From: a virus | Direction: 5' to 3' (one strand) | DNA: 24,883 bases | Virus record (IMG/VR): IMGVR_UViG_3300034190_003745 | Coordinates: 1-24,883 of that record | Part shown: piece by piece, positions 2 to 24,883 of the stretch | Position numbering within the stretch: the stretch's first letter is position 1 | How the letters are laid out: each line of letters starts with the position of its first letter | Notes under the pieces: model-generated | Databases searched by the model: none | The model's input: the letters and a program-made list of their open reading frames with translations, nothing else | Told to the model about the DNA's origin: nothing | Program-made: the position numbers and the translations under genes

Positions 2-706
2 AGAATCGATGCAAACCTGTTCAACATCAGTATGGATGAACTCAAGCAACTTCCCAAGTCGATGTATGATTCTAAAATTGAAAAGATCAAGTCTAATGTC
101 AAGGGTAACTTGATTGTCAAGGAGTATCCTACCGCGACTGCAAATGTGAACCACTTTCGTGCTTTGCTCGACGAACTAAAGATTAAGAAGAGGTTTGTAC
201 CCGACATAATTTTTATTGACTACCTTAACATTTGTGCGTCCGCAAGAATTAAGAACGGCGGTAATGTTGGTTCTTACTTCTACATCAAAGCGATCGCGGA
301 GGAACTAAGAGGACTAGCGGTTGAGTATGATGTGCCTGTTTTCACTGCAACACAAACAAACCGATCTGGTTTCTCTAACACTGATGTAGGCCTCGAAGAT
401 ACTTCTGAATCATTTGGTTTGCCTGCAACCGCTGACTTCATGTTTGCTTTAATCGCAACAGAGGAACTAGAAGAACTCAATCAAATACTTGTAAAACAAC
501 TGAAGAATCGCTATAATGACACAGCGGTAAATCGTAAGTTTGTATTGAAGATTGATCGATCTAAGATGAAGTTTGAGGATGTTCAATTAGAAGATCAAGA
601 GTTGATTGATGCCAATCAAACACAAACCTCCTCTGGTAACGGGTTTGATCAGAAGTCCTTCGAGAAGAACTTTGACAAGACTAAGTTTGAGAATTGGAAT
701 ATATGA
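2..706 (+). CDS. 41: Replicative DNA helicase, T4 gp41 / DnaB family (5' end missing)
   Basis: C-terminal part of the hexameric 5'-3' replicative helicase that unwinds the fork and works with the gp61 primase. The reading frame is open to the left window edge (RIDANLFNIS precedes the first internal Met at 32), so the gene starts upstream and its Walker A motif lies outside the window. Visible RecA-fold motifs of DnaB helicases are Walker B with the catalytic Asp (DIIFIDYLNI), the H3 glutamine strand (TATQTNRSGF) and the H4 region with basic finger residues (KNRYNDTAVNRKF, then KIDRSKMKF). The stretch ETSESFGLPATADFMFAL-like (SFGLPATADFMFAL) is also typical of gp41. The tail is low-complexity and rich in Asn, Gln and Lys. 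Its TGA overlaps the primase ATG (ATGA), as expected for a coupled helicase-primase pair. Family assignment is firm. Confidence 0.93.
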   Translation, partial: RIDANLFNISMDELKQLPKSMYDSKIEKIKSNVKGNLIVKEYPTATANVNHFRALLDELKIKKRFVPDIIFIDYLNICASARIKNGGNVGSYFYIKAIAEELRGLAVEYDVPVFTATQTNRSGFSNTDVGLEDTSESFGLPATADFMFALIATEELEELNQILVKQLKNRYNDTAVNRKFVLKIDRSKMKFEDVQLEDQELIDANQTQTSSGNGFDQKSFEKNFDKTKFENWNI

Positions 707-1755
707 GCGGATTCATTGACAAAAAGTATATTAACTTAGTATCTGCTCAGTTAGAAAAGTTTGCATGGAAGAAGGATAATCTAGCCAACTGTCGTTGTCC
801 AATTTGTGGAGACTCACAAAAGAACAAGACAAAGGCTAGAGGTTACTTCTACCAAAAGGGTAATGACTATTTTTACAAGTGTCACAATTGTGGTGCTGGA
901 CATTCTTTGTATAGATTTTTAGAATCCGTTTCCCCTACATTAACGAAAGAGTATTCCTTCGAACGTTGGAAAAACGGCGAAAATGGAAAGTCTAATTACG
1001 TTAAGCCAAAGGAAACAGAGTTGTTAAGTATTTTTAAGAAACCAGAATTTAAACCCACTCATGATTTACTTAAACCTTTAACTTCTGTCAAGGATCTTCC
1101 TGACAATCATGTCTGTAAACAATTCGTGGAGATGCGCCGAATCCCAAAAAAGTTTTATGATATTCTTTATTACACAGAGGATTTCGGTTCGTACATGAAG
1201 TTGGTTGATCCTGAAGTTTCAACTATGATTTCTCATCCTCGTCTAATTATTCCTTTTTTTAATAAAAAGGATGAGGTTGTCGCGGTTCAAGGTCGTTCTC
1301 TTTCGATGAAAGACGAATACAAGGCAAGAACTACCGCTCGATATGTCACGGTGAAGTCCGACAAATCTATTGAACGATTGTGGTATGGTATGTGGCGAGC
1401 GAATCCTAAGAAGCGTGTGTATGTTGTAGAGGGTCCTTTGGATAGTCTCTTTGTCGATAATACGGTTGCAATGGTTGGCGCTGCTTCTCTTGAACATGAA
1501 CCCGCGCGTTTTGCAAATAGTGACATGGTTTATGTTTTGGACAATGAACCAAGAAACCCACAGATAGTTAAGTTTAACGAAAACTTAATTGAACAGGGTA
1601 AAACAGTTTGCATTTGGCCAAACGGAATCAAGGACAAAGATATTAATGATATGATTTATCATATGAAACCAAAGCAGATTAAAAAGATTATGGATGATAA
1701 CGCTGTTTCTGGATTAGAGGCAAAGATGCGTTTGAACCGATGGAGGAAAGTATAA
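703..1755 (+). CDS. 61: DNA primase, T4 gp61-like
   Basis: Synthesises RNA primers for lagging-strand replication and joins gp41 in the primosome. The 350-residue protein is close to the T4 gp61 length. The N-terminus has a zinc-ribbon with CPIC (residues 32-35) and CHNC (60-63). A TOPRIM core follows: VVEGPLDSLF with the conserved Glu near 243, and MVYVLDNEP with the metal-binding DxE near 280-282. I chose the ATG at 703, inside the helicase stop (ATGA overlap), over the TTG three codons upstream, because MSGFIDKKYIN is the family-like N-terminus. The last codons overlap a TATAAATA late-promoter box. Family known; primosome role inferred from order and motifs. Confidence 0.93.
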   Translation: MSGFIDKKYINLVSAQLEKFAWKKDNLANCRCPICGDSQKNKTKARGYFYQKGNDYFYKCHNCGAGHSLYRFLESVSPTLTKEYSFERWKNGENGKSNYVKPKETELLSIFKKPEFKPTHDLLKPLTSVKDLPDNHVCKQFVEMRRIPKKFYDILYYTEDFGSYMKLVDPEVSTMISHPRLIIPFFNKKDEVVAVQGRSLSMKDEYKARTTARYVTVKSDKSIERLWYGMWRANPKKRVYVVEGPLDSLFVDNTVAMVGAASLEHEPARFANSDMVYVLDNEPRNPQIVKFNENLIEQGKTVCIWPNGIKDKDINDMIYHMKPKQIKKIMDDNAVSGLEAKMRLNRWRKV

Positions 1756-1758: not shown

Positions 1759-1777
1759 ATTTCTATTGGAGGAAGAG

Positions 1778-2539
1778 ATGTCTAAAGCAGTTTTCATTTC
1801 CGATCTTCACTTGGCATCCAAAAAGTCAAAGGGGGATTGCATACATGAATTTCTCAAAGATTTGAAAACTGAAGATCTCTACATGGTTGGTGATGTCATC
1901 GACATTTGGAGATTTCAACAAGCATTTTCGATGGGACCGATTAAACAACAGGAGACAGTCAAGTGTTTTGATCGCCTTCTGAGACTCTCCAAAAAAACAA
2001 ACGTACACTACATTTGGGGAAACCATGACGAATTCATGTCAAGATTTGCTGATTCTTCTGGGTTTGGTAACATCACACTGGCGGAGCGTAAAGACTACAT
2101 TTCAAGCGATGGTAAGAGATATCTCGTCCTTCATGGTCATCAGTTCGATCTTCTTGCAAAATATGCCTGGTCGCCTTGGTTGGGTAAAGTAGGTGATATC
2201 GGTTACGATATTATGATCGAAATTAACGAATGGTATAACTGGTTTCGACGGAAGATTGGTTTAAGGTATTGGTCGTTGTCCAAGTATATCAAAGTCAAGT
2301 TCAAGACAGCAGTGGTGTTCATGGATCGTTTTGAAAAGATTACAACCGATTATGCAAAGAAAAATGGTTACGACGGAGTGATTTGTGGTCACATTCATGA
2401 TCCTCAAGATAAGACTGTAAATGATGTTCATTATCTCAACTGTGGATGCTGGACAGACGAAGAAAACCTCACTTACATCGTAGATGACGAGAATGGAATT
2501 AGACTAGAATATGCAAAAAAGAATACTCATAGTAAGTGA
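1778..2539 (+). CDS. plcP: Metallophosphoesterase of the COG2908 family, probable phospholipase PlcP
   Basis: A 253-residue calcineurin-type metallophosphoesterase. Metal-binding motifs are all present: DLH (D9, H11), GDVID (from 38), GNHDE (from 81), HGH (119-121) and GHIH (204-207). The central segment with the RRKIGLRYWSLSKYIK pattern and the FEKITTDYAKKNGYDGVICG lead-in to GHIH matches the COG2908 group, annotated as UDP-2,3-diacylglucosamine diphosphatase (LpxH-like), which also contains PlcP. PlcP cleaves phospholipids to diacylglycerol under phosphate starvation in Sinorhizobium and marine bacteria. The downstream glycosyltransferase overlaps by 29 bases, the same pairing as host plcP-agt operons, so I prefer PlcP over an LpxH lipid A role. 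The start follows SD GGAGGAAGAG and replaces an upstream TTG. No signal peptide, so it is cytosolic or peripheral to the inner membrane. Enzyme class is firm; substrate is inferred. Confidence 0.75.
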   Translation: MSKAVFISDLHLASKKSKGDCIHEFLKDLKTEDLYMVGDVIDIWRFQQAFSMGPIKQQETVKCFDRLLRLSKKTNVHYIWGNHDEFMSRFADSSGFGNITLAERKDYISSDGKRYLVLHGHQFDLLAKYAWSPWLGKVGDIGYDIMIEINEWYNWFRRKIGLRYWSLSKYIKVKFKTAVVFMDRFEKITTDYAKKNGYDGVICGHIHDPQDKTVNDVHYLNCGCWTDEENLTYIVDDENGIRLEYAKKNTHSK

Positions 2540-3524
2540 CGCATGGAAACCACAAGTCAACGGTGTCGTAACGACCCTTACAAATGTCTCTGAAAAACTG
2601 AGAGAGATGGGACATGATGTTCGCGTTGTCTCTCCAGAGGATTGCTCCTTTCGGTTTCGTGTGCCGTTTTACCCAGAGATTCGTCTTGGGTGGCCTAAGA
2701 AACGAGTCATGGAAAATCTACTCCACGACTTTCAACCAAACCATATTCACATCTCAACACCAGAGGGTCCGTTGGGTCGGTGCTGGAGGAAGTTGTGCAA
2801 AAAATATAGACTAAACTACACAACGGCATACCACACCAAGTTTCCAGAGTTTGTAAAGTCAATAACGAAGGTGATTCCAGTCTTTTTCGGACATATGTTC
2901 ATGAGGTATGTGAATAAGCATTCCTCTTGCATTATGGTTCCGACTGGAAGTATGATTGATGAACTCAAAGAAAGAGGATATGAAAATGTGAAACTTTGGG
3001 GTAGGGGGTATGACGAAGAAATCTTCGGTCCAGTAAAAAGAGTCCCACAACAAAATGATCCACCCAGACTTCTTTGTGTTTCTCGAATTTCTGCTGAGAA
3101 GAATCTCGAAGATTTCTTTGAACTAGATGTGCGGGGCGACAAGATCATGGTGGGTGATGGACCTGAACGAAAGAAGTATGAAAAAAGATATCCCGATGTT
3201 ACCTTCGTTGGATTTAAGAAGGGGATGGAATTGGCGAGTTACTACCAAAATGCGGATGTCTTTGTTTTTCCATCGAAGAAAGACACTTTTGGTGTTGTCA
3301 TGATCGAGTCTCTTGCCTGTGGAACTCCAATCGCTGGATACGATGTGACAGGTCCGAAGGACATTGTAATCAATGGTTACAACGGATTTATTGGAAACGA
3401 TCTAAAAACGAATGTCATAAAGTGTCTTGACATAGATCGTGATATGGTGTATCGTTCTAGCTCCAGTTATTCTTGGACGGGTTCAGCAAATCAATTTTTA
3501 AATAATTTAGTAGGAATAATTTGA
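2511..3524 (+). CDS. agt: GT4 glycosyltransferase, probable diacylglycerol glycosyltransferase Agt
   Basis: A 337-residue retaining GT-B glycosyltransferase of family GT4, close to the SQD2/MgtA/Agt branch. Visible motifs: an N-terminal loop SDAWKPQVNGVVTTLTN (9-25), HISTPEGPLG (80-89), YHTKFPEF (107-114), the SRISAEKNLE donor-site loop with R192 and K197, VGDGPER (214-220), and the nucleotide-sugar site around DTFGVVMIESLACGTP with the conserved Glu at 266. It starts inside the phosphoesterase gene and ends in TGATG with thyX, so translation is coupled in both directions. Agt enzymes transfer a sugar from a nucleotide donor to the diacylglycerol that PlcP produces, making phosphorus-free glycolipids. 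Acceptor and sugar cannot be read from sequence; an LPS-modifying enzyme is the main alternative. Confidence 0.75.
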   Translation: MQKRILIVSDAWKPQVNGVVTTLTNVSEKLREMGHDVRVVSPEDCSFRFRVPFYPEIRLGWPKKRVMENLLHDFQPNHIHISTPEGPLGRCWRKLCKKYRLNYTTAYHTKFPEFVKSITKVIPVFFGHMFMRYVNKHSSCIMVPTGSMIDELKERGYENVKLWGRGYDEEIFGPVKRVPQQNDPPRLLCVSRISAEKNLEDFFELDVRGDKIMVGDGPERKKYEKRYPDVTFVGFKKGMELASYYQNADVFVFPSKKDTFGVVMIESLACGTPIAGYDVTGPKDIVINGYNGFIGNDLKTNVIKCLDIDRDMVYRSSSSYSWTGSANQFLNNLVGII

Positions 3525-4252
3525 TGCAAAAAAAAGTTTTGGATAAAGGTTTTGTTGACTACATTGATCACATGGGATCTGATGTTACCGTGTGTAACGC
3601 AGCGAGAGTTTCCTTTTCTAAGGATACTGATTGGGAGATTGATGAAAAAGCGGTCGCTCGTCTTGAACAGTCTGGATCATCTTATCATAAAGAGGATGTT
3701 CGTAAGTTAGGTGAACGAGATCAAAAACTTATTCAGTATCTTGCAAAGCACCAACACTGGACACCGTTCGCGCACCCGCAGATCACTCTTCGGATCAAGG
3801 CACCAGTTTCGATTCGAACGCAGTTTTTCAAGCACAAGCAAGGATTCGTGGAAAATGAAATCAGTCGTCGCTATGTTTCCTTTGAGCCGGACTTTTATTA
3901 TCCAGAGTGGAGAGGAAAGCCCGTTAACGGAGCAAAGCAGGGTAGCGAACACTTCATCAAAATTCACAAGGACATGGAAAAACAATACAACAGTTCTGTT
4001 CGTGTCGCTCTTTACACCTATGAGCAACTTCTAGAGGAGGGTGTTGCACCCGAACAAGCACGTTTCATTCTCCCACAGGCGATGTACACGGAGTGGTACT
4101 GGACAGGATCTCTTGCTGCATTCGCTAGGTTCTACTCCCAAAGAATCGAAGAACACGCTCAGTGGGAAATTCGTGAATATGCAAAAGCGATCGGTGAAAT
4201 AATTTCACCATATTTTAAAGAATCTTGGAAAGCACTGACTCAGTGCCATTGA
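3524..4252 (+). CDS. thyX: Flavin-dependent thymidylate synthase ThyX
   Basis: Makes dTMP from dUMP using methylene-tetrahydrofolate, FAD and NADPH, for phage DNA synthesis. The 242-residue protein has the ThyX signature in a variant form: RTQFFKHKQGFVENEISRRY (98-117), where the usual RHR is KHK but the downstream NE-x-S-x-RY is kept. HQHWTPFAHP (76-85) and the helix with PEQARFILPQAMYTEWYWTG are also typical of the family. The ATG at 3524 overlaps the glycosyltransferase TGA (TGATG) and is preferred over the TTG one codon upstream. It is followed by nrdJ after 40 bases, forming a deoxynucleotide-supply pair. The KHK-type motif occurs in other phage ThyX proteins as far as I recall, so I do not read it as inactivating. 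Confidence 0.95.
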   Translation: MQKKVLDKGFVDYIDHMGSDVTVCNAARVSFSKDTDWEIDEKAVARLEQSGSSYHKEDVRKLGERDQKLIQYLAKHQHWTPFAHPQITLRIKAPVSIRTQFFKHKQGFVENEISRRYVSFEPDFYYPEWRGKPVNGAKQGSEHFIKIHKDMEKQYNSSVRVALYTYEQLLEEGVAPEQARFILPQAMYTEWYWTGSLAAFARFYSQRIEEHAQWEIREYAKAIGEIISPYFKESWKALTQCH

Positions 4253-4292: not shown

Positions 4293-6242
4293 ATGGAATT
4301 ACCGTCTTTATATCAATCTTTTATACATCTTTCGCGTTACTCTCGTTGGTTGGACGATAAGGGGCGTAGAGAAACGTGGAGTGAAACAGTTGCACGGTAT
4401 TTCGATTTCTTCGAAACGCATCTAAAGGAGGAATGCAATTACGAGGTTCCTACAGAACTTCGCACAGAGTTGGAGTCTGCGGTTCTTAATCTTGAAATTA
4501 TGCCGTCTATGCGCGCACTGATGACCGCAGGGGAAGCATTAAGGAGAGACAACGTTGCAGGGTACAACTGCTCCTATGTCAGTGCAAACAAACCTAAGTC
4601 GTTTGATGAGATTCTGTACATCCTCATGTGCGGAACAGGAGTCGGCTTTAGTGTCGAACGAGAATTCATCAAAACCCTGCCGACCATAGCAGAGGAGTTC
4701 GAAGACAGTGATACAACGATTATTGTCCAAGATTCAAAGATGGGTTGGGCGAAAGCCTATAGAGAACTGTTTAGCCTTCTCATTGGAGGTCAAGTTCCAA
4801 AATGGGACACGAGCAAAGTTCGTCCTGCCGGCGCACGCCTTAAGACTTTTGGAGGAAGAGCATCCGGACCCGAGCCGCTCGAAGACCTCTTCCGCTTCAC
4901 AGTTGACACTTTCCGAAAAGCAGCGGGTAGAAAACTTACTTCTATCGAATGTCACGATATCATCTGCAAAATTGCGGAGATTGTCGTTGTCGGGGGTGTT
5001 CGAAGATCGGCACTGATCTCTCTTTCCTCGCTCACGGATGAGCGTATGAGAGATGCAAAGAGTGGTGCTTGGTGGGAAGCAGATCCCCAGCGAGCACTTG
5101 CAAATAACTCTGTCGCTTACAAAGAGAAGCCAGAGCCAGGTATCTTCATGGAAGAATGGCTTTCTCTTTACAAGTCAAAGAGTGGTGAGCGTGGTATCTT
5201 TAACCGAGATGCTGCACAGAAGCAAATTGAAAAGGCGAATGACTTTAGAAAGCAACTGAACCCAGAGTATCGTATGCGTGAATCTGAGTTTGATTTTGGA
5301 ACTAATCCATGCTCAGAAATTATTCTTCGAGATAAAGAATTTTGTAACCTAACTGAAGTTGTTGTTCGTTCTGATGACACCGAGGAGTCTCTACGGAGGA
5401 AGGTGCGTCTTGCCACCATTCTTGGCACTTGGCAGTCAACTCTTATCAACTTCAAGTATCTTTCGGGAGACTGGAAGAAGAACTGCGAAGATGAGAGACT
5501 ACTTGGTGTTTCCATGACTGGTATCATGGATTCAAAGGTAACACGAGAACTTAAAGGTTTGGATCTAAAATTAAGAACGTTCAAGTCTATTGCGATTGAA
5601 ACCAATAAGGAACACGCCGATATTCTCGGTATTCCGCAGAGTGCAGCAATCACTTGTGTGAAGCCTTCTGGAACAGTCTCTCAGTTAACCGATGCTGCTT
5701 CCGGTATTCACGCTCGTCATAGTCAGTTCTATGTCCGCACCGTTCGTGCTGACAACAAGGATCCTCTGTGCGAATTTATGAAGAGATGCGGTTTCCCACA
5801 TGAAGCCGATGTCATGAAGCCAGAGCATGTTACCGTGTTCTCATTCCCCGTGAAGTCACCAAAGGGATGTGTTACTCGTAATGACATGACTGCTATTGAG
5901 CAGTTAGAACTTTGGCTTACATACCAACGCTATTGGTGCGAACATAAGCCTTCTGTAACAATCACTGTTCGTGAGGAGGAGTGGCCATTGGTGGGTGGAT
6001 GGGTATATGATCACTTTGATGAGATTTCTGGTATTTCATTCCTTCCGCACAGTGATCACTCTTATCGACAAGCACCTTATCAGGAGTGCGGAGAAGCAGA
6101 GTATAAAGAATTACTTAAGTCTCTACCAACGGATGTTGACTGGACTGGACTTGGTGATTACGAAAAAGAGGACAATACGTCAGGAACTCAGACATTCGCC
6201 TGCTCTGGTGACTCATGTGAAGTAGTCGATTTAACGAAATGA
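4293..6242 (+). CDS. nrdJ: Class II (adenosylcobalamin-dependent) ribonucleotide reductase, monomeric
   Basis: Reduces ribonucleotides to deoxyribonucleotides with adenosylcobalamin as radical source, independent of oxygen. At 649 residues it is somewhat shorter than the Lactobacillus leichmannii monomeric enzyme. Motifs: YNCSY with the substrate-reducing Cys93, GTGVGFS (114-120), the active-site loop TNPCSEI with thiyl Cys340 and Glu342, the second redox Cys at 351 (FCNLTE), a KPSGTVS phosphate-binding loop, and a C-terminal cysteine pair C637/C642 (CSGDSC) spaced as in the leichmannii enzyme for thioredoxin regeneration. No ATP-cone and no partner NrdB gene is seen. The start is fixed by SD TAGGAG upstream of 4293. 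It needs B12 from the host, which may relate to the CobS-like gene at the right end. Confidence 0.95.
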   Translation: MELPSLYQSFIHLSRYSRWLDDKGRRETWSETVARYFDFFETHLKEECNYEVPTELRTELESAVLNLEIMPSMRALMTAGEALRRDNVAGYNCSYVSANKPKSFDEILYILMCGTGVGFSVEREFIKTLPTIAEEFEDSDTTIIVQDSKMGWAKAYRELFSLLIGGQVPKWDTSKVRPAGARLKTFGGRASGPEPLEDLFRFTVDTFRKAAGRKLTSIECHDIICKIAEIVVVGGVRRSALISLSSLTDERMRDAKSGAWWEADPQRALANNSVAYKEKPEPGIFMEEWLSLYKSKSGERGIFNRDAAQKQIEKANDFRKQLNPEYRMRESEFDFGTNPCSEIILRDKEFCNLTEVVVRSDDTEESLRRKVRLATILGTWQSTLINFKYLSGDWKKNCEDERLLGVSMTGIMDSKVTRELKGLDLKLRTFKSIAIETNKEHADILGIPQSAAITCVKPSGTVSQLTDAASGIHARHSQFYVRTVRADNKDPLCEFMKRCGFPHEADVMKPEHVTVFSFPVKSPKGCVTRNDMTAIEQLELWLTYQRYWCEHKPSVTITVREEEWPLVGGWVYDHFDEISGISFLPHSDHSYRQAPYQECGEAEYKELLKSLPTDVDWTGLGDYEKEDNTSGTQTFACSGDSCEVVDLTK

Positions 6243-6320: not shown

Positions 6321-6354
6321 ACACAAAGGTGTCTAGCGACACCTTTGTGTTTTT
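6321..6354 (+). terminator. Strong Rho-independent terminator after nrdJ
   Basis: A perfect 13-bp stem, ACACAAAGGTGTC (6321-6333) and GACACCTTTGTGT (6338-6350), closes a TAGC loop and is followed by TTTT. It ends the helicase-to-nrdJ transcript. The next start codon lies only 14 bases downstream. Confidence 0.9.
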
Positions 6355-6367
6355 CATAAATAATTGT

Positions 6368-6931
6368 ATGAGTGAAGTAGAATTTATCGCTGGAATAGAC
6401 TACAGCTTATGCGGACCTGCAATTTGCATAAGCGATATGAGTCAAACTTTTGACTTTTATTCTTGTCAATTTTTCTTTTTGACACAAATAAAAAAGTACG
6501 CAAAGAAGATAAAATCCAATATTCAAGGTGAGACTTTTTCTGAGTATAATCAAGATATTGAGAGATACGAGACAATAGCAGATTGGGCAGCAGATAAAGT
6601 TATAGGCTGTACCCATATTGGTTTAGAAGGTTACGCTTATAATGCCACTGGCAAAGTGTTTCATATTGCGGAAAACACAGGCGTCCTTAAGTATAAATTG
6701 TACCAGATGTCTACCCCGGTTGATGTTATTCCTCCGAGCGAAATCAAGAAATTTGCAACCGGAAAGGGAAATGCAAATAAAGAAAAAATGTACGAAACAT
6801 TCTTTGCAGAAACTGGAGTTCCCCTTGCTTCTTTTTTGGGAACAAAGGGAGATAAGATAAAAAGCCCACTATCTGATATAGTAGACTCATATTATATTTG
6901 TAAATTTTTAAGATATGAAATTATTATTTAA
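6368..6931 (+). CDS. RuvC-like Holliday-junction resolvase / RNase H-fold nuclease
   Basis: A 187-residue protein with the acidic motifs of the RuvC/RNase H fold: GIDYSLCGPAI (first Asp), IGLEGYAY (central Glu) and SDIVDSYYIC (C-terminal Asp). The segment NTGVLKYKLYQ followed by PPSEIKKFATGKGNANKE is typical of RuvC-type resolvases found in large phages and helps recognise this subfamily. It would cut branched DNA during recombination-dependent replication or packaging. I use the ATG at 6368 because an upstream GTG lies inside the terminator hairpin. A CATAAATA box abuts the start (6355-6362) but is too close to serve it. It ends convergently, overlapping the minus-strand lipoprotein gene by 8 bases. 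Confidence 0.75.
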   Translation: MSEVEFIAGIDYSLCGPAICISDMSQTFDFYSCQFFFLTQIKKYAKKIKSNIQGETFSEYNQDIERYETIADWAADKVIGCTHIGLEGYAYNATGKVFHIAENTGVLKYKLYQMSTPVDVIPPSEIKKFATGKGNANKEKMYETFFAETGVPLASFLGTKGDKIKSPLSDIVDSYYICKFLRYEIII

Positions 6932-10642: not shown

Positions 10643-10901
10643 TTTGTTCTAACGCTCTTCTTATCCAAAGTAGATCTGTTTTAATTTCTGCGAGATCTGT
10701 CATTAGTGTGGCACGAAATGCCTCGCTTGTGTCTAATCTGGAATCTAAAGTTTCTAAATTTCTTTCTATAAATTCTAATTTTGTTTCGTAAGTTGCATCT
10801 TTTTGTGCAACAAACCAAACTGTTGATCCAAAGGTGATCGCAAAGCCAAGAATCGCGCTCATAATAGAAATGGTGGCACTAGTCTTCGCCGTAGCAGTCA
10901 T
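10635..10901 (-). CDS. Small membrane-anchored coiled-coil protein
   Basis: An 88-residue protein with one N-terminal membrane segment (about 12-32, ISIMSAILGFAITFGSTVWF) followed by a heptad-like coiled coil (KLEFIERNLETLDSRLDTSE and on to the C-terminus). The topology would leave the coiled coil on one face of the inner membrane. An inner-membrane spanin (Rz-like) shape is possible, especially with a lipoprotein gene in the same operon, but it is short and far from that gene. Its ATG overlaps the upstream stop (TAATG) after SD AGGAGACG, and its end overlaps the next gene by 8 bases. Function unknown. Confidence 0.65.
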   Translation of the reverse strand: MTATAKTSATISIMSAILGFAITFGSTVWFVAQKDATYETKLEFIERNLETLDSRLDTSEAFRATLMTDLAEIKTDLLWIRRALEQND

Positions 10902-13465
10902 TATCGTCTCCTTTTAGACACAATATGTTGTTTTTTCTGACCGGGCGTACCCTCTATGTAGGTTTTTAATAATTCATCAGTTCCCTCAAACCCAGCTCCA
11001 TATTCCTCGCCGATTCGATGCTTGTTATCCGCTCTGTTTTGACTTCTATCCCTCGCCCTTAGATTAGAATCGCCATTATTAAGTGCATTTCCATCTTTAT
11101 GATCCACATCTTGGTGGGGTTTTACTTTACCACTTTTGACCATTCTTCTTCTAGCCAAAACTCTATTTGATCTCTTTTTTCTTTGCTCTGGTTTTCCATG
11201 AAACGTCTCGTATTCGTGCTTATAGTCTCGCTTTGATGGATCATCCTGTTCAAACACCAAGTTAAAAGACTCGTTAACCCCATCTTCTTCCTCCGTGTAG
11301 AAGGTGTCTTCGAAGTCGGGTTTCTCTGGTAAAACCGGTACTTTCTTCTTTTTCCCGTTGATTGTTATGATATTCATTCTGCCCTCTTCGGGTGCGTCTT
11401 CAATAATATTACCACTGACAGATATATCCAGTCCTCTTGAGATTTCCCTTAAAATCTGCTCTGGGTTCTTGCCGTAAAAGTCACCAAGAAGTTCTGGTGT
11501 GTAAATGAAAGCGGTGTCTCCGTTCATTTTGACTTTTGGTTTGTTTGCCTCTGCGAGTTCGATATTTTTCCCTTTGAGTTCGAACCTGAAAGTCGGTTGG
11601 GTTATTTTTCCCCTGCTCTTGGATCGGATTCCGACGTAAGTTTTTGGCATCACGCTTGTGATATAATCCCCATCTGACTCGCCTATTTCTTCGAACCCTG
11701 CTGGACTGAGAAGATGTGTTGCCGCTGCCTCTGGATTGTCCTCGAATGCTCTTCTCCCAGTGAGTGCTTCGTGAACCAATTCTCTCTTAAACTCTTCACT
11801 TTCTGATAAAAACTTAACAAACTCGTCCTGAATGTTCTTTGTCACAGTTCCAGAATAGTTTTGCCAATTGTACTTGTCCTTAAGGTTTCCGTTCTTATCA
11901 AACATCTCTTCAAACCAAGGTTTTCCGCCGTGTCTATCCTTTGCCTCTTCAATATGCTTTGGATCTAACATCTTGTTTGGAAGTGATCTTAGAGATTTAG
12001 CAACATTTTTTGCAGCATTCTGCATAACTTCCTGATCTTGAGCGCCGACGATCGCAGAGAGGTTCTCAAGCGTTTTGGCGGTTGTCTGTGCGCTTTCACT
12101 TGACAGTTGAATGTTACCATTCATTTTAAGAGATATTTTATTGTCCCCGCATATCAAATCTGTTTTTGGTTCCGGTCTTCCAGAAATCCCCACCTCGTCG
12201 GAGTGCTTGAGTTGTCCTTTGCACTCGTCTGGTATGTGCTTTACTGCGGTTTTGGCCATGTCAAAAACATCTTTTCTAAAAGCAGTTAGATTTTGACCTG
12301 CCATATCGTTTCTTTTTGATAATTGCTCGTCTGTTGCGCCCGCAGCCTTAGCGGCAAGATAAGTGACAGCCCACTCAAACTGGACGCCTCTACCCTGAGT
12401 GATTTCCTTCGACGGACCTGGGTATTGAATTGTGTCTATGTTCTGTGCGGGGCCTGCCGGTGTAAACGGATCCAGAGCATCATATTCTGCTTGGGCTTGG
12501 GCTTGAGCTTCTGCGTCTGCATCTTGTTGCATCTGTTCCGTATCAGAATCAGAGGGCATTTTTTCTTCCGTTTCTTTCTTTCTTTTTTCTGCCTCTTTTT
12601 CTGTGTCTCTCTGTGATTCGACATCTTTCATCATATCAGAAAGATCACCAAAAACTTCCATTGAAGTTGGAGTTTGCTTAAATTTTTGTTGTCTAATCGC
12701 ACCCTCAACGTCAGTCATCGTTGGTTTTGGTTTATCTGGACCGCCCTTAAGAACAGTGTCATCATTGGGGTCAGGTCGAACTACCACCTCTATTTCGCCG
12801 CCCTTTCTTTTTTGAATGAGATACAGATCGGGAGGTAAATATTTGGCTGCTTCGTTTAATAATTCCGGATTGTTCATAAATTCCTCAAATTCCTCGTAAT
12901 TGAACCAATCTAAAGATTCCATGTGAGATGACAGAGTGGAGTGCATTTTCTTTGCATCGGAATGGGAAACATGCTTTGGAAGCATTGTCTTGAATGATGT
13001 GAGTCCCGCCTTTGCTCTTTTTCTTGTTTCTGTCCCGGATGCTCTTTCTACGGGATCATGGGAGTCTGGATCTCTGTGACCAGCGGAAACAATAGAAACA
13101 GATTTTAGTCCGGAGTGTTTCTTCAGGGCGTCTGCTTTTTTATTCATCTCTGCGTGCCGATCTGATCCTACGATCAAAGTTGCGTGTTGATATCCACTTT
13201 TTGCAGCGTGCTCTGCCGCATGAAACATGCTTTTAACTTCTGGATGAGAAACTACGTTATGTCCTCTAAGAACTTTTTTTGCAAACCCTTGCTTCACGTC
13301 CGGCGGCAATGGATTTTTTTTGCCATCATGAGTTTGACTCAAATAGATTGCGTGATCACCCCCGACTTTTTTGGCATGAGATCTTACCGCGTCTGCTAGT
13401 TTTAGATGTCCCGCGTGTGGGGGGTTCATTCTACCGAATGCGAATACAAGGTGTTTATTTGCCAT
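10901..13465 (-). CDS. Fusion of NMNAT-like nucleotidyltransferase, PD-(D/E)XK-like domain and HNH nuclease
   Basis: An 854-residue protein. Residues 1-180 form a cytidylyl/NMN-adenylyltransferase-like domain: FGRMNPPHAGH with the HxGH motif at 17-20, LSQTHDGKKNPLP, IVGSDR (98-103) and the SAGHRDPDS and GTETRKRAK region. After a helical stretch with an LNE site (203-205, before AAKYLPP) comes an acidic, Gln/Glu-rich linker (about 280-335). The next domain has FEWAVTYLAA (Glu364) and PKTDLICGDNKISLK (Asp436, Lys447), a PD-(D/E)XK-like pattern. The C-terminus (about 745-815) is an HNH domain: RRRMVKSGKVKPHQDVDHKD then GNALNNGDSNLRARDRSQN. I use the ATG at 13465 (SD GGTGGAG) over a GTG five codons upstream. 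It is the first gene of the late operon. The nucleotidyltransferase and HNH calls are firmer than the middle one. Confidence 0.8.
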   Translation of the reverse strand: MANKHLVFAFGRMNPPHAGHLKLADAVRSHAKKVGGDHAIYLSQTHDGKKNPLPPDVKQGFAKKVLRGHNVVSHPEVKSMFHAAEHAAKSGYQHATLIVGSDRHAEMNKKADALKKHSGLKSVSIVSAGHRDPDSHDPVERASGTETRKRAKAGLTSFKTMLPKHVSHSDAKKMHSTLSSHMESLDWFNYEEFEEFMNNPELLNEAAKYLPPDLYLIQKRKGGEIEVVVRPDPNDDTVLKGGPDKPKPTMTDVEGAIRQQKFKQTPTSMEVFGDLSDMMKDVESQRDTEKEAEKRKKETEEKMPSDSDTEQMQQDADAEAQAQAQAEYDALDPFTPAGPAQNIDTIQYPGPSKEITQGRGVQFEWAVTYLAAKAAGATDEQLSKRNDMAGQNLTAFRKDVFDMAKTAVKHIPDECKGQLKHSDEVGISGRPEPKTDLICGDNKISLKMNGNIQLSSESAQTTAKTLENLSAIVGAQDQEVMQNAAKNVAKSLRSLPNKMLDPKHIEEAKDRHGGKPWFEEMFDKNGNLKDKYNWQNYSGTVTKNIQDEFVKFLSESEEFKRELVHEALTGRRAFEDNPEAAATHLLSPAGFEEIGESDGDYITSVMPKTYVGIRSKSRGKITQPTFRFELKGKNIELAEANKPKVKMNGDTAFIYTPELLGDFYGKNPEQILREISRGLDISVSGNIIEDAPEEGRMNIITINGKKKKVPVLPEKPDFEDTFYTEEEDGVNESFNLVFEQDDPSKRDYKHEYETFHGKPEQRKKRSNRVLARRRMVKSGKVKPHQDVDHKDGNALNNGDSNLRARDRSQNRADNKHRIGEEYGAGFEGTDELLKTYIEGTPGQKKQHIVSKRRR

Positions 13466-16764: not shown

Positions 16765-17484
16765 ATGTCCACAAACGACACGCAGGGTTGTTCAAGATGT
16801 CGTGACTATGATGAAATAAAGAATGATCTGGAAAAGCAGAAAGAAAAAATACAAGATAGCCAGAAAACCGCTCTCGCTGAGTGTGAAGAGAAAAGAACAA
16901 ATTTACAGAGAAAGTTGACCAGGGTAGGTGTCGCTGCCGTTATTGGCGGCACTATTTTGGGTAAAGAGTTTGTTGATAATGTTGTTTCATATATCGAATC
17001 ATTTAACAAAGTTGCTGAAGTCGTTCCTGGCTTAGTGGGATCTGTAACCCCCTCCTCTGGAGGTGCTGGTGGTTCGATGCCTGGTCAAAGTACATCATCA
17101 AAATCGCAAAAAAAGGAAGAGGAAGAGGATACCAAGAAGTCTAACCCCGACAAAATTCCCTTTTCCCCGTACAGCAACGTTAATCCTTATCCCATATTTG
17201 CAGACAAGGATGCAGTTTCGGATTCCTTGGAGAGTATTTTAAGAGGTGATGTTTATACCCCCGAGTCAATCCTTGATATGGATCTTGCATCACTTGTCGA
17301 TCCAATGATTGATTTTCCCATAATTCCTACTTCGAATGAGTTTGTAATAGATTTTAAACTGCTAGATCCAATTGAGTCGAGTTACTTTGTGGCAATGTCC
17401 AGTCAACCATCCATAGTGCCTGGGCCGCCAACTCTTGCTTTGCTCTTATTGCCTTTATTGTTCAAAGGACGCAGAAAAAGATAA
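16765..17484 (+). CDS. Membrane protein with coiled coil and PEP-CTERM-like C-terminus
   Basis: A 239-residue protein. It begins with a Cys-containing segment (CSRCRDYDE) and a charged coiled coil (about 15-48), then a hydrophobic stretch (VGVAAVIGGTILG, 52-65), a Gly/Ser-rich and acidic-basic linker (SSGGAGGSMPG, KKEEEEDTKK) and a region rich in Asp, Pro and Ile. The last 22 residues have three parts: VPGPPTLALL, a further hydrophobic run and a basic end KGRRKR. That is the layout of PEP-CTERM sorting tails (typically VPEPATLALL, hydrophobic, RRRR) recognised by exosortases; here the Glu is Gly. The start follows SD AGGAGG. It sits alone between divergent or convergent genes. Function unknown; the tail is the notable feature. 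Confidence 0.7.
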   Translation: MSTNDTQGCSRCRDYDEIKNDLEKQKEKIQDSQKTALAECEEKRTNLQRKLTRVGVAAVIGGTILGKEFVDNVVSYIESFNKVAEVVPGLVGSVTPSSGGAGGSMPGQSTSSKSQKKEEEEDTKKSNPDKIPFSPYSNVNPYPIFADKDAVSDSLESILRGDVYTPESILDMDLASLVDPMIDFPIIPTSNEFVIDFKLLDPIESSYFVAMSSQPSIVPGPPTLALLLLPLLFKGRRKR

Positions 17485-20980: not shown

Positions 20981-21048
20981 AATAAGCAGAGCAGGCGATC
21001 GCGGTGTTTTTGATAAGCGCCCCAGAGCCTTTTCTCTGCGCCCTCAAC

Positions 21049-21076
21049 CAGCCACGCGAAAGCGTGGCTGTGTTTT
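21049..21076 (+). terminator. Rho-independent terminator after the 20699 gene
   Basis: A 9-bp stem, CAGCCACGC (21049-21057) and GCGTGGCTG (21062-21070), with a GAAA tetraloop and a T-rich tail (TGTTTTT). The tail runs straight into the late-promoter box at 21077. Confidence 0.85.
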
Positions 21077-21084
21077 TATAAATA
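21077..21084 (+). promoter_or_regulatory. T4-type late promoter box
   Basis: A perfect TATAAATA that directly continues the T-run of the terminator, 22 nt before the ATG at 21107, with SD ACAGGAGAAAA in the leader. Confidence 0.7.
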
Positions 21085-21106
21085 CTGTGTCTGACAGGAG
21101 AAAACA

Positions 21107-21559
21107 ATGCCGAAGTCATTAAAAGAAAAAACACAGCGATTAGTAAAAGAGCAAGAGGATCCCCATGTTTCTGCCGATCCTCGTCATCCAGCCAATAGAG
21201 GCGGCGAATCTCCAGTGAGAAAGAAGTCAATGGCCCATGTTGTTGATGTTGATGGCGTAAAGCACTACTCACAGATGCCATTTCTCACAAAGGGCGGTAA
21301 GGTTCACGGACCGGCAAAAGGAAAACAAGTGCCACTACCCAAAGGGGCAAAGTATAGATCACCTGTGAAAACAGAAGAATCATACTCCTATGTCACCAGA
21401 GCAAAAAGACTGGGCGATGTTATTGCTGGTAGAACTGCACAAGGTCGAACCGATAAGGTTAGCAAGGCACAAAGCAAACTTCTTGGTATGGGAGCCAAAG
21501 CAGCAGCAGACAAAATGATGGGCGACATTACCCGCGAGCGTCTTGGACTCAAAAAGTAA
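21107..21559 (+). CDS. Small basic protein, unknown
   Basis: A 150-residue basic protein. The N-terminus (MPKSLKEKTQRLVKEQEDPH) is a charged helix with an LKE triplet. A middle part with MAHVVDVDGVKHYSQMPFLT and GGKVHGPAKGKQVPLPKGAK looks like an extended Gly/Pro/Lys-rich segment, followed by a helical end (VTRAKRLGDVIAGRTAQGR, ERLGLKK). It has its own promoter and SD and ends before a strong terminator, so it is a one-gene unit like 20699. A nucleic-acid-binding virion protein is plausible from composition only. No family recognised. Confidence 0.65.
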   Translation: MPKSLKEKTQRLVKEQEDPHVSADPRHPANRGGESPVRKKSMAHVVDVDGVKHYSQMPFLTKGGKVHGPAKGKQVPLPKGAKYRSPVKTEESYSYVTRAKRLGDVIAGRTAQGRTDKVSKAQSKLLGMGAKAAADKMMGDITRERLGLKK

Positions 21560-21562
21560 AGA

Positions 21563-21578
21563 CAACCGGCGCCGGTTG
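21563..21578. repeat. Perfect 16-nt palindrome CAACCGGCGCCGGTTG
   Basis: A GC-rich inverted repeat with no spacer, just after the stop of the 21107 gene and 40 bases before the terminator at 21617. It could be part of the 3' end structure or a binding site at the border to the GC-rich block. Confidence 0.6.
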
Positions 21579-21616
21579 ATAGTTCGACGCCGATTGCACA
21601 CAAAGGAATGTTTCGA

Positions 21617-21636
21617 GGGGGCGAAAGCCCCCTTGT
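21617..21636. terminator. Terminator between convergent genes
   Basis: A 6-bp GC stem, GGGGGC and GCCCCC, with a GAAA tetraloop (21617-21632), followed by TTGTT on the plus strand. It lies between the plus-strand 21107 gene and the minus-strand ParB-like gene and can serve the former; the minus-strand side has only a weak U-run. Confidence 0.7.
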
Positions 21637-22680
21637 TCATTGGTATAGAATGGTATCGGTGTCCGAGTCGATCTCGATGAGACTATCCGCATCCTCGTTG
21701 TTGGACGATCCGAGATCCTGCGGCAACGCACCCACGAATCGAATCGGGTATCCGTACTGCCAGTCATTGACGCCGACTGCCTCCAGGATGTCATCAAGGA
21801 GTTGGTTGGCGGTGTCGATCACCTGCTGCCTCTTCTCCTCCACGCTCGCATCACCAGTCTCCAGCACGGCGATCACGACCTCCGTTGGGTTGTGTCGTTC
21901 GCCGTTCGGTCCTACTTCGTTGAAGTGACTGATGGCACGAGCGATGACTCGATACTCCGAACCCTGCTTCATGACTGCGCCATATACTTCCCGATCGGCG
22001 TCCCAACCGAAAGCGGTCGTACGGCCGTACTTGTCCATGAGAAACTGGGATGCAGCCTTCTCGGTCCAGTTGAGCCACTGTTCGTGCGAGCCGTTTCGCT
22101 TCACCACTTCGGCGACGATCTGATCCCGGAGAGCCTTCTTCTTGCCCCGATAGAGGATACCCACCTTCTTCTTGATGGAGTCCTTGTCGTTGCGGAGATC
22201 TCCACGCTTGATCTGCTTGCTGAGGGTATCGACGACGGACGAGACATCTGCGTCGAGTTGCGGGGGGTGGTTGTTCGCAGCCTGCTGTGCGTCCTCCCGT
22301 GCAGTCTCGTGATCGAACACGACGAGATCTGCTTCGAACTCAGACATGCCGATGCGGTCAAACGCTTGAAAGCGGTGATTGCCATCGACGATGTAATACT
22401 TCTTGCCTTGGTTCTCCGGAAGGTTACGATCCGCATGTGGGATCTCTTCGAGTACGGGCTTCGGGATCGTGCTGTCGATTCCGTTCTCGTTGATGTATTC
22501 GACGAGGCTCTGAATGTGGTAGTGGTCCATTCCCTTCGATCGCGTCGAGTTCCGACTCGAATCATCGTTCACCTCATCGATCCTGACACGAATAGTGCCG
22601 ATGCTGTTCACGCCATTGATACTTGCAATTCTGTTGTTCATCAGTTGATTCTCCATATTAATCGCTTCTTCTTTGGTCAT
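21637..22680 (-). CDS. ParB/sulfiredoxin-fold nuclease-like protein
   Basis: A 347-residue protein with the ParB-like core: a substrate-type loop (DSTIPKPVLEEIP), then KKYYIVDGNHRFQAFDRIG with the DGNHR motif (99-103), as in DGQHR/DGNHR-type ParB N-terminal domains that bind CTP or act as nucleases. After residue 125 comes a long helical part of unknown fold (IKKKVGILYRGKKKALRDQ) and an acidic tail (NEDADSLIEIDSDTD). No helix-turn-helix of plasmid ParB is obvious. The start is uncertain: the ATG at 22680 has a weak, purine-only leader, and MENQLMNN eight codons later is possible. Codons end in C or G far more often than in the left part of the window. Confidence 0.75.
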   Translation of the reverse strand: MTKEEAINMENQLMNNRIASINGVNSIGTIRVRIDEVNDDSSRNSTRSKGMDHYHIQSLVEYINENGIDSTIPKPVLEEIPHADRNLPENQGKKYYIVDGNHRFQAFDRIGMSEFEADLVVFDHETAREDAQQAANNHPPQLDADVSSVVDTLSKQIKRGDLRNDKDSIKKKVGILYRGKKKALRDQIVAEVVKRNGSHEQWLNWTEKAASQFLMDKYGRTTAFGWDADREVYGAVMKQGSEYRVIARAISHFNEVGPNGERHNPTEVVIAVLETGDASVEEKRQQVIDTANQLLDDILEAVGVNDWQYGYPIRFVGALPQDLGSSNNEDADSLIEIDSDTDTILYQ

Positions 22681-22733
22681 TTTTTTCTTCTTTTTCGTCT
22701 CTTTCCCTAGAGACTTCGGAACTTTCGTAACGA

Positions 22734-23129
22734 TCAGACATTACCGCACCTCCAGTATTCGTCTGCCAGTTCGTATTGCAGATCTTTAGCTTCTCGTTCA
22801 CCTTCGCCCTTCCAGTGCCCCCGTTCCCACTGCCAGAGATGCACGCACTCGTGGAAGATTGTGGCGAGCATGTCTCGGATCGACTGATCGATTGCGATAT
22901 CGATCACATAGTCGATCTTCTCACCCTCCCACTCGTAGCATTGGCCGTAGCATTTCAGATCCTTGTATTGCCATGCGTTGATACGAATGTTGATGTCCTC
23001 GAATTCGCCATCGAAGTCGTTCAGTTGCATGTTGTACCGATTGAGGAACCATCGCACCGCATCGATCATCAAATGGCGGGTTTTGTCGTTACAGTGAGCC
23101 GGATCGTGGATGATGTAGTTCTTCTTCAC
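22734..23129 (-). CDS. HExxH zinc-binding protein (putative metalloprotease)
   Basis: A 131-residue protein with a helix carrying HECVH (93-97) within LATIFHECVHLWQWERGHW, the zincin signature of metalloproteases, followed by a helix with Glu/Asp (KDLQYELADEYW) that may give the third ligand. The fold outline (strands, HExxH helix) resembles SprT-like or small phage zincin domains. The GTG at 23129, with SD GGAGAG and overlapping the upstream TGA (GTGA), is preferred to an unsupported long extension to 23270, which would read into the small membrane protein gene in another frame. Substrate unknown. Confidence 0.7.
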   Translation of the reverse strand: MKKNYIIHDPAHCNDKTRHLMIDAVRWFLNRYNMQLNDFDGEFEDINIRINAWQYKDLKCYGQCYEWEGEKIDYVIDIAIDQSIRDMLATIFHECVHLWQWERGHWKGEGEREAKDLQYELADEYWRCGNV

Positions 23130-23293
23130 TGTGTTCTCTCCATCGCTGCAAGCACGAGCCCCAGATTGGCGAGGGAGTACGAGATCCAGACGAGTGCCCA
23201 AGGGTAATCGTGCCGGATCAAGTACCCCACGCCAACGATCGCATACAGGATGCCTGCGATCATGGGGCACACTCGGACGAGTGCGTCGATCAT
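23126..23293 (-). CDS. 55-residue protein with two membrane segments
   Basis: A short frame between the 23290 and 22734 genes with overlaps at both ends: its ATG shares ATGA with the upstream stop, and its TGA overlaps the GTG of the HExxH gene. The product, starting MIDALVRVCPMIAGILYAIV, has two hydrophobic segments (MIAGILYAIVGVGYLI and ALVWISYSLANLGLVLAAM) separated by a short charged loop (RHDYP). No family recognised; the hairpin topology fits a small holin-type or regulatory membrane peptide, which cannot be told apart here. Confidence 0.7.
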   Translation of the reverse strand: MIDALVRVCPMIAGILYAIVGVGYLIRHDYPWALVWISYSLANLGLVLAAMERTQ

Positions 23294-23607
23294 GCGGACA
23301 CGACCTCCGTGCCGATGATCATGGTTTCGCCGTCGTCCGCAGGGAGTTCATCCCGGAGACACATCTCGTGATACTCCTTGAGTTCTGGCAGGATATAGGA
23401 TCCCTTGCCAACCTGACGAGACTTGTCCTTGACGATCCACGCGGGCGCCCAGTCCATGCCGCAATACTTTGCGGACATCATCTTGAGGTAGGATCGTGGA
23501 TATCGGTCGAGGATATCTACTCCATTGGCATCGGCTTCCTTACAGAGGCCAGTGTAGAGATTGATGATGAATTGCTGCTGCTTGGGCTTAAGATTGTCGA
23601 AACTCAT
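23290..23607 (-). CDS. Small unknown protein
   Basis: A 105-residue soluble protein. MSFDNLKPKQQQFIINLYTG starts a helical part; DILDRYPRSYLKMMSAKYC and WAPAWIVKDKSRQVGKGSYI, ending LPELKEYHEMC, suggest a small winged-helix-like fold, but there is no catalytic motif. SD AAGGAG lies before the ATG at 23607. It stands between the CobS-like ATPase and the two-segment membrane protein, all on the minus strand and GC-rich. Family not recognised. Confidence 0.65.
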   Translation of the reverse strand: MSFDNLKPKQQQFIINLYTGLCKEADANGVDILDRYPRSYLKMMSAKYCGMDWAPAWIVKDKSRQVGKGSYILPELKEYHEMCLRDELPADDGETMIIGTEVVSA

Positions 23608-23647
23608 AGATTTGATACTCCTTGTTCTTCTTGTTCGAAAGATGGTT

Positions 23648-24883
23648 TCAGGCGTTGAGTGCGTAATCCGCCGCAGTCACACGCTTCTTGGGTTCCCACT
23701 TGCTGAGTTCTTCTTCGTTGGCACGATAGATCTTGCCGGTGACGGTCCACTTCTTCATACCCGGATCCCACTTCGCACCGAGAGGCTTCACTTCGTCCTT
23801 CTTCTCGAATGCGACATTCAGATCGATGATGCCATCGTCCTGAACGGACGCTGAGTCAAAAGGGACGGAGGAGTCCGCTCCTTCCTCGCCCTCGGAGGAA
23901 GGAGACATGGACTCATCCACCTTGTCGTACAGATTGCGGAACGCCTGCTGGGTGTCGTCGTCAAACCTGGCAAGAGCCAGATCGATCGCAGTGGCACGAT
24001 CCTTGAAGATCGAAAACGCCTTGCAGATGTTCTCCAGACGCCGGGTCGTGATGATCTCGTCGATCGCACCCTCGGAGAATGCCTTGCGGGTGATCTCCGC
24101 CCAGGAGGTGAGGTGTTCGGCGAAGTCATTGTCAACGTGCCCAAACTTCTCCATCTTCTTGATGAGAATACGCTTCTCGGTGGATCGGGCTGCGTAGTCC
24201 TGCTCCATCGTCCAGTCGAAACGATCCAGGAACGCCTCGTTGAGAACGTTGGTGCCGATGAATCGTCCGTCGTTGTCACCCTTACCCTTGGTGTTGGCAG
24301 TGGCGATGACGGTGAATCCCTGCTTGGGAGTGATCCATTCGCCAGTCTTCTTGATGAAGATACCCTTACCTTCCAGCACGGGCTGGAGGCACATGATCTT
24401 GGACGAACCGAGATCGATCTCGTCGAGGAGGAGAACAGCGCCACGCTGCATCGCTTCGACGACGGGTCCGTAAACGAACTTCGTCTCACCCTCGACGAGG
24501 CGGAAACCACCGACGAGATCATCCTCGTCCGTCTCGGAGGTGATGTTGACACGGAAGCACTCACGATTCGTCTTGGCACACGCCTGCTCGATCATCGTCG
24601 TCTTGCCGTTGCCGGACATACCAGTGATGAAGATGGGAGCGAACATGTTCGCAGCAACGATCTTCTCCACGGTCTTGGAGTGTCCCCACGAAACGTAGTC
24701 CTTCATGCGATCCGGCACGAGACTGACACGCTCACCAGCGGTCATGCCCATCACTGCGTTCAGCACGGGAGCGGGCGTTGGATCGCCAACCGGAGCGGCG
24801 ACGGGGGCAGGAGCAGGAACAGGGGCGGGTGCAGACTGCTGAGGAGTCACGGTGCCACCAAACTCGGGCACGGCGAAGACGCC
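23648..24883 (-). CDS. cobS: CobS-like AAA+ ATPase with C-terminal DUF5710-like domain (5' end missing)
   Basis: A MoxR/CobS-type AAA+ ATPase: Walker A GMSGNGKTT (84-92 from the GTG at 24871), Walker B AVLLLDEIDLG, a sensor-like ATANT, and FLDRFDW arginine-finger region, plus ISE-type helices. The N-terminal 40 residues are a Pro/Ala-rich linker (APAPVPAPAPVAAP). After the ATPase core an acidic linker leads to DLNVAFEKKDEVKPLGAKWD then PGMKKWTV, a DUF5710-like domain. CobS is a subunit of cobalt chelatase in aerobic B12 synthesis and is carried by many marine T4-like phages. The frame is open to the window edge, so the gene starts outside; the GTG is not a secure start. A general AAA+ remodelling role is the alternative to cobalt insertion. 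Confidence 0.85.
   Translation of the reverse strand, partial: GVFAVPEFGGTVTPQQSAPAPVPAPAPVAAPVGDPTPAPVLNAVMGMTAGERVSLVPDRMKDYVSWGHSKTVEKIVAANMFAPIFITGMSGNGKTTMIEQACAKTNRECFRVNITSETDEDDLVGGFRLVEGETKFVYGPVVEAMQRGAVLLLDEIDLGSSKIMCLQPVLEGKGIFIKKTGEWITPKQGFTVIATANTKGKGDNDGRFIGTNVLNEAFLDRFDWTMEQDYAARSTEKRILIKKMEKFGHVDNDFAEHLTSWAEITRKAFSEGAIDEIITTRRLENICKAFSIFKDRATAIDLALARFDDDTQQAFRNLYDKVDESMSPSSEGEEGADSSVPFDSASVQDDGIIDLNVAFEKKDEVKPLGAKWDPGMKKWTVTGKIYRANEEELSKWEPKKRVTAADYALNA

Follow-up and report, generated by a model that had tools for sequence, protein, structure and literature searches.

The 24,883-base IMG/VR virus record analysed here (below, the window) contains two overlapping genes, which encode a PlcP-like metallophosphoesterase and a GT4 glycosyltransferase of the Agt type. 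The pair is probably a phage copy of the bacterial pathway for renovation of phospholipids to glycolipids, linked to phosphorus and serving phage nucleotide and DNA synthesis. Text searches of open-access journal articles yielded no paper that describes phage PlcP or a phage PlcP-Agt pair.

Gene neighbourhood of the pair

The pair lies in a co-directional run of genes in the order helicase-primase-pair-thyX-nrdJ (Table 1). The two ORFs overlap by 29 bases (2511-2539), and the start of thyX overlaps the stop of the glycosyltransferase gene by one base. Since neighbouring genes overlap or nearly touch, the run from the helicase gene to nrdJ is likely to form a single transcript. Both ORFs are complete, and the coordinates and overlap originally predicted for them are exact.

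The window has a T4-like character, as seen from PHROG matches of the helicase, primase, RuvC-like and NrdJ proteins. No capsid or terminase gene was recognised within it. TerL or gp23 was found in several, not all, of the contigs bearing the pair (L059, L073, L083, L092, L093, L097, L099, L121), and gp23 is present on a contig syntenic with the window (L035). The viral record with its T4-type genes, and gp23 on the syntenic contig, bear out the description of the pair as phage-borne.

Table 1. Genes and signals in the window
Feature	Position	Strand	Remarks
Replicative helicase, C-terminal part (T4 gp41 type)	2..706	+	phrog_19, 2.9e-57; truncated by the window edge
DNA primase (T4 gp61 type)	703..1755	+	phrog_47, 4.7e-70; directly upstream of the pair
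Ribosome-binding site GGAGG of the PlcP-like gene	1768..1772	+	read off the sequence
PlcP-like metallophosphoesterase, 253 aa	1778..2539	+	ATG at 1778, stop ends at 2539; intact ORF
Agt-type GT4 glycosyltransferase, 337 aa	2511..3524	+	ATG at 2511, stop ends at 3524; intact ORF
ThyX thymidylate synthase	3524..4252	+	TIGR02170, 138.5 bits, above cut-off
B12-dependent ribonucleotide reductase, NrdJ type	4293..6242	+	phrog_367, 6e-186
Strong terminator-like hairpin	6321..6350	+	13 pairs, then TTTT; ends the co-directional run
RuvC-like resolvase	6368..6931	+	phrog_159, 3.5e-26
854-aa protein	10901..13465	-	N-terminal cytidyltransferase-like and C-terminal HNH endonuclease-like domains
Protein with candidate sorting tail	16765..17484	+	no Pfam family above cut-off, no PHROG match
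AAA ATPase	23648..24871		

Several other features of the window were observed. The C-terminus of the protein with the candidate sorting tail, VPGPPTLALLLLPLLFKGRRKR, resembles tails of the PEP-CTERM type. The G+C content climbs from about 0.40 to 0.51-0.54 at positions 21000-24883. The AAA ATPase need not be foreign, since other phages of the subfamily to which the window belongs (vI, see below) hold relatives of it (52-57%).

Assignment of the phosphoesterase and the glycosyltransferase

The phosphoesterase matches PF00149 (1.3e-12) and retains the presumed metal ligands D9, H11, D42, N82, H119, H205 and H207 as well as the motif GNHD. Its neighbours in the tree are PlcP-like proteins from viruses and from bacteria such as SAR11, rhizobia and Pseudomonas, and its identity to bacterial PlcP is 38-42%. 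Viral PlcP-like proteins fall into two groups, vI with the window and vII with the cultured Pelagibacter phage Mosig. The signature HGD plus GDW is present in 131/131 vII proteins, as in bacterial PlcP, where HGD occurs in 77, GDW in 80 and GDWV in 79 of the 80 homologues considered; the three bacterial exceptions with HGH (L156, L162, L195) are all Verrucomicrobial. In vI, HGH is present in 50/50 proteins (a count that includes copies of the window's own locus), together with GCWT or GCGT. The window protein has HGH and GCWT at the positions of HGD and GDWV. This signature is our own observation and not a published criterion. As the window protein departs from it, the protein is filed as a member of a PlcP-like virus-only subfamily and not as PlcP proper. 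Thus the identity with PlcP that had been predicted is upheld by the grouping, whereas the altered signature residues make the substrate less certain than the name implies.

The glycosyltransferase matches PF00534 (2.9e-21) and PF13439 (1.7e-16). Over its full length it shares 38-45% identity with bacterial Agt and diacylglycerol (DAG) glycosyltransferases, and among cellular proteins the SAR11-type Agt stand closest to it in the tree (support 97/84). The catalytic dyad H108/D258 corresponds to His104/Asp256 of SAR11 GTcp, and 14 of the 15 sites mutated in GTcp are kept, the exception being Thr162, replaced by Gly164; the numbering was carried over via a SAR11 homologue (L124) that agrees with GTcp at 15/15 sites. 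GTcp produces MGlc-, MGal- and MGlcA-DAG, and its activity is abolished by alanine substitutions at the dyad and donor sites (PMC8231724). The best NCBIfam match is monoglucosyl-DAG synthase NF049988 (72.6 bits, under the cut-off of 400), and the structural model matches generic GT4 folds, e.g. BshA, MshA and PimA. Judged by its sequence, the window glycosyltransferase is assigned to Agt.

In a large clade of viral Agt proteins (84 Agt-type matches in all, among them L052, L055, L059, L069, L080, L087, L090, L097, L102, L108), ETFG stands instead of DTFG, with Glu replacing the catalytic Asp. The swap apparently was one event (support 100/98). The substitution D256E in GTcp costs more than 90% of the activity.

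The original prediction had raised a role in lipid A synthesis, with an LpxH-type phosphoesterase and an LPS glycosyltransferase. LpxH enzymes are indeed the nearest solved folds (Z 19.6, 17-22% identity) and the best NCBIfam match of the window phosphoesterase, and the Mosig homologue carries an LpxH-type annotation. However, such a fold is expected of both families and thus does not discriminate between them, and the scores of 31 bits with TIGR01854 and 47.3 bits with NF003743 are far below the cut-offs (190.35 and 134, respectively). GNRD is present in all eight LpxH references, one of them from E. coli and the other seven from genomes that also encode PlcP, whereas 266 of the 267 complete PlcP-like proteins, the window's included, have GNHD. 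A separate LpxH is retained in the seven checked genomes with PlcP. In the tree LpxH forms a 100/100 clade of its own on a very long branch, whose exact point of attachment to the PlcP tree is not fixed (AU test of LpxH grouped with the window protein, p 0.227). Thus the window protein resembles LpxH in its fold and presumed metal ligands and differs from it in motif, sequence and clade. LpxH identity was rejected in view of the HMM scores, the motif, the tree and the low sequence identity. The E. coli LPS and colanic acid GT4 enzymes WaaG, WaaB, WcaI, WcaL and WcaC lie far outside the Agt clade, and an LPS glycosyltransferase was rejected on this ground. All this makes the lipid A explanation very improbable. 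Another reading, that the GT4 enzyme glycosylates phage DNA bases like the T4 alpha-glucosyltransferase, agrees with the position of its gene between the primase gene and thyX/nrdJ, but otherwise owes its appeal to the coincidence that the T4 enzyme is also named Agt. The full-length homology to bacterial DAG glycosyltransferases, the best NCBIfam match and the nearest viral homologues, which adjoin plcP, all argue against it, and no T4 record was matched. This reading is scarcely credible and was dropped as unsupported.

A distant phosphoesterase (30% identity) annotated as UDP-2,3-diacylglucosamine diphosphatase was observed near psbA in Synechococcus phage S-SRM01 (L286:5989-6693). It has neither GNHD nor GNRD and lies on a long branch in the tree.

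The pair and its neighbours in bacteria and viruses

Among 80 bacterial PlcP loci, 47 encode Agt directly downstream. A search with the window's Agt retrieved 80 viral loci. In 70 of these, some of them near-duplicates, a same-strand plcP precedes agt, and the two genes mostly overlap or are separated by no more than 200 bases; in the remaining ten, the contig ends no more than 0.7 kb away from Agt. The same 29-base overlap occurs, by automatic start calls, in at least ten other viral loci. A glycosyltransferase gene (Agt or GT2) is found within three genes of plcP in 42 of the 61 non-redundant viral plcP loci, compared with 16.9 expected when genes are drawn at random from these loci (0/1000 draws). 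The dN/dS values among close viral homologues, where measurable, are 0.04-0.17, indicating purifying selection. This selection, together with the recurrence in about 70 viral and 47/80 bacterial loci, argues that the pair is not due to chance. In SAR11 HTCC7211 and Erythrobacter, plcP and agt are known to be adjacent (PMC4796936). The two-gene unit that had been predicted is thus the one of SAR11 and other bacteria. Sinorhizobium had been named for it as well, but in the rhizobial genomes examined plcP and agt are mostly apart.

Variants of the locus were also seen. A RimK-type ATP-grasp gene adjoins plcP in 13 viral loci (L053, L061, L097, L102, L104, L107, L237, L240, L245, L249, L255, L274, L278), usually between plcP and agt. 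In 11 others, GT2 directly follows plcP in the place of Agt (L239, L243, L247, L253, L258, L259, L268, L275, L276, L279, L280), possibly reflecting a different replacement lipid.

A full-length Agt match was found in one of the 22 vI contigs searched; Agt is absent from the other 21, several of which are 90-125 kb long. In both basal members of vI, L039 and L218, Agt lies within two genes of plcP, and a reasonable reading is therefore that Agt was lost in later vI phages and retained or regained in the window.

Genes of nucleotide metabolism and phosphate uptake are recurrent neighbours of viral plcP. The order nrdA-plcP-nrdB was observed in L236, L262, L272, L273 and L277, and agt or GT2 accompanies plcP between nrdA and nrdB in L235, L250 and L259. 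In L035 and L038 plcP follows thyX-nrdJ, and in L024 and L028 it follows nrdJ. With near relatives removed, the nucleotide link is modest (10/61 loci, 6.1 expected, 21/1000 draws). A search of 40 whole viral contigs identified PstS in nine, in each case no more than 5 kb from plcP, on contigs of up to 154 kb. Once near relatives are removed, this linkage rests on two lineages; the window itself contains no pstS. Thus the links to pstS and nucleotide genes exist, yet they are not universal. A membrane fatty acid desaturase gene was found a few genes from plcP in ten viral loci (including L053, L073, L080, L086, L087, L089, L106, L245, L275), but among the 61 loci with near relatives removed this linkage is not above random draws.

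In the Pelagibacter phage Mosig EXVC030M the vII protein Mosig_00120 (35% identity to the window protein) is annotated as UDP-2,3-diacylglucosamine hydrolase (L285), and its gene adjoins a divergent gene of a phosphate-binding protein (pstS). The genome report of this phage mentions no lipid or phosphate gene (PMC7892664). The host strain, SAR11 HTCC1062, reportedly has no plcP and therefore probably does not remodel its lipids (PMC4796936), and so Mosig would supply a function missing from its host. The region between the divergent genes (L312:1180-1330) contains loose aaacttaac repeats; nothing more was seen there, and a Pho box is not claimed.

Viral lpxH genes (K03269) are listed in surveys of marine and Lake Baikal viruses (PMC10653327, PMC9611531). 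Given the annotation of the Mosig protein, some of the published viral genes named lpxH or UDP-2,3-diacylglucosamine hydrolase may be plcP.

Possible function and comparison with known systems

The proposed mechanism has two steps. The PlcP-like enzyme would hydrolyse host glycerophospholipids to DAG and a phosphorylated head group, from which host phosphatases would then free phosphate. DAG destabilises bilayers; Agt would cap it, using a UDP-sugar as donor of a hexose or hexuronic acid, and so yield a phosphorus-free bilayer lipid. The net result would be that membrane phosphorus is freed and the membrane is not destroyed. The released phosphorus would most likely enter phage nucleotide and DNA synthesis, as genes for the helicase, primase, thymidylate synthase and ribonucleotide reductase flank the pair in the same orientation. 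The release of phosphate that had been suggested is favoured by the linkage to pstS and nucleotide genes; however, the product of PlcP is a phosphorylated head group and not free phosphate.

Two other explanations concern the substrate and the purpose. The phosphoesterases of vI, including that of the window, may have moved to another phosphoester (e.g. of a nucleotide or a sugar-lipid), the window Agt being independent cargo. A shift of this kind is suggested by the HGH/GCWT signature and the near absence of Agt from vI genomes, and vI plcP genes lie beside those of DNA polymerase, NrdJ, ThyX and dUTPase. On the other hand, the basal vI members have Agt close to plcP, the two ORFs of the window overlap, the protein retains GNHD and the presumed metal ligands, and HGH occurs in Verrucomicrobial PlcP-like proteins as well; we regard the shift as rather unlikely. 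It is unlikely, too, that the same enzymes act to change the envelope lipids (charge, curvature or receptor environment), with phosphorus release as a by-product. Possible benefits to the phage would be a block to superinfection, resistance to lysis from without or timing of its own lysis. Lipid renovation in Pseudomonas alters membrane proteins and resistance to antimicrobial peptides (PMC9804370), a study of Ruegeria ties aminolipids to phage attachment (PMC9938194), and the desaturase genes near plcP would fit the same purpose. However, many phages carry plcP but no agt, and there plcP stands with pstS or with genes of DNA polymerase, ribonucleotide reductase or dUTPase; no recurring lysis or receptor gene family is present among the identified neighbours of plcP.

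Membrane phospholipid is a large intracellular store of phosphorus, and phage DNA needs phosphorus. If the reading as phospholipid-to-glycolipid renovation is correct, phages, beyond improving phosphate uptake (pstS, phoA), tap the host membrane as a phosphorus source, with glycolipids keeping the membrane intact, and viral infection is tied both to the composition of lipids and to the phosphorus cycle in water. Mosig on HTCC1062 offers a direct test case, a phage with plcP on a host that presumably does no remodelling of its own. As a tentative generalisation, about which we are somewhat in doubt, many aquatic phages could carry a self-contained lipid-renovation module (plcP plus agt or GT2, in some cases with genes for PstS and a desaturase close by) and use it during infection to draw phosphorus for DNA synthesis out of the membrane of the host; at least one such host strain reportedly has no plcP of its own, and some lpxH genes of virome surveys would be plcP.

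Auxiliary genes of phages for phosphate and lipid desaturation are already known; in marine phages, the phosphate genes are pstS, phoA and phoH. Published examples of phage auxiliary genes also include phoH with mazG (PMC9004378). The presumed purpose is the same, phosphorus supply or response to phosphate stress during infection, but pstS, phoA and phoH concern uptake, free esters and stress response, whereas plcP-agt would act on membrane lipid. Mosig likewise carries a PlcP homologue with GNHD; however, it belongs to vII and its gene lies beside pstS with no adjoining Agt, whereas that of the window belongs to vI and lies beside Agt. Another close analogue is the plcP-agt pair found in SAR11 HTCC7211 and further marine bacteria (PMC4796936, PMC8231724), which is alike in gene order, homologous proteins and the glycosyltransferase dyad and shares the presumed route from phospholipid via DAG to glycolipid. 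The phage pair differs in sequence, at the identities given above, in the overlap of its ORFs, in its location within a run of replication and nucleotide genes and, in the window, in a PlcP-like protein lacking HGD/GDWV.
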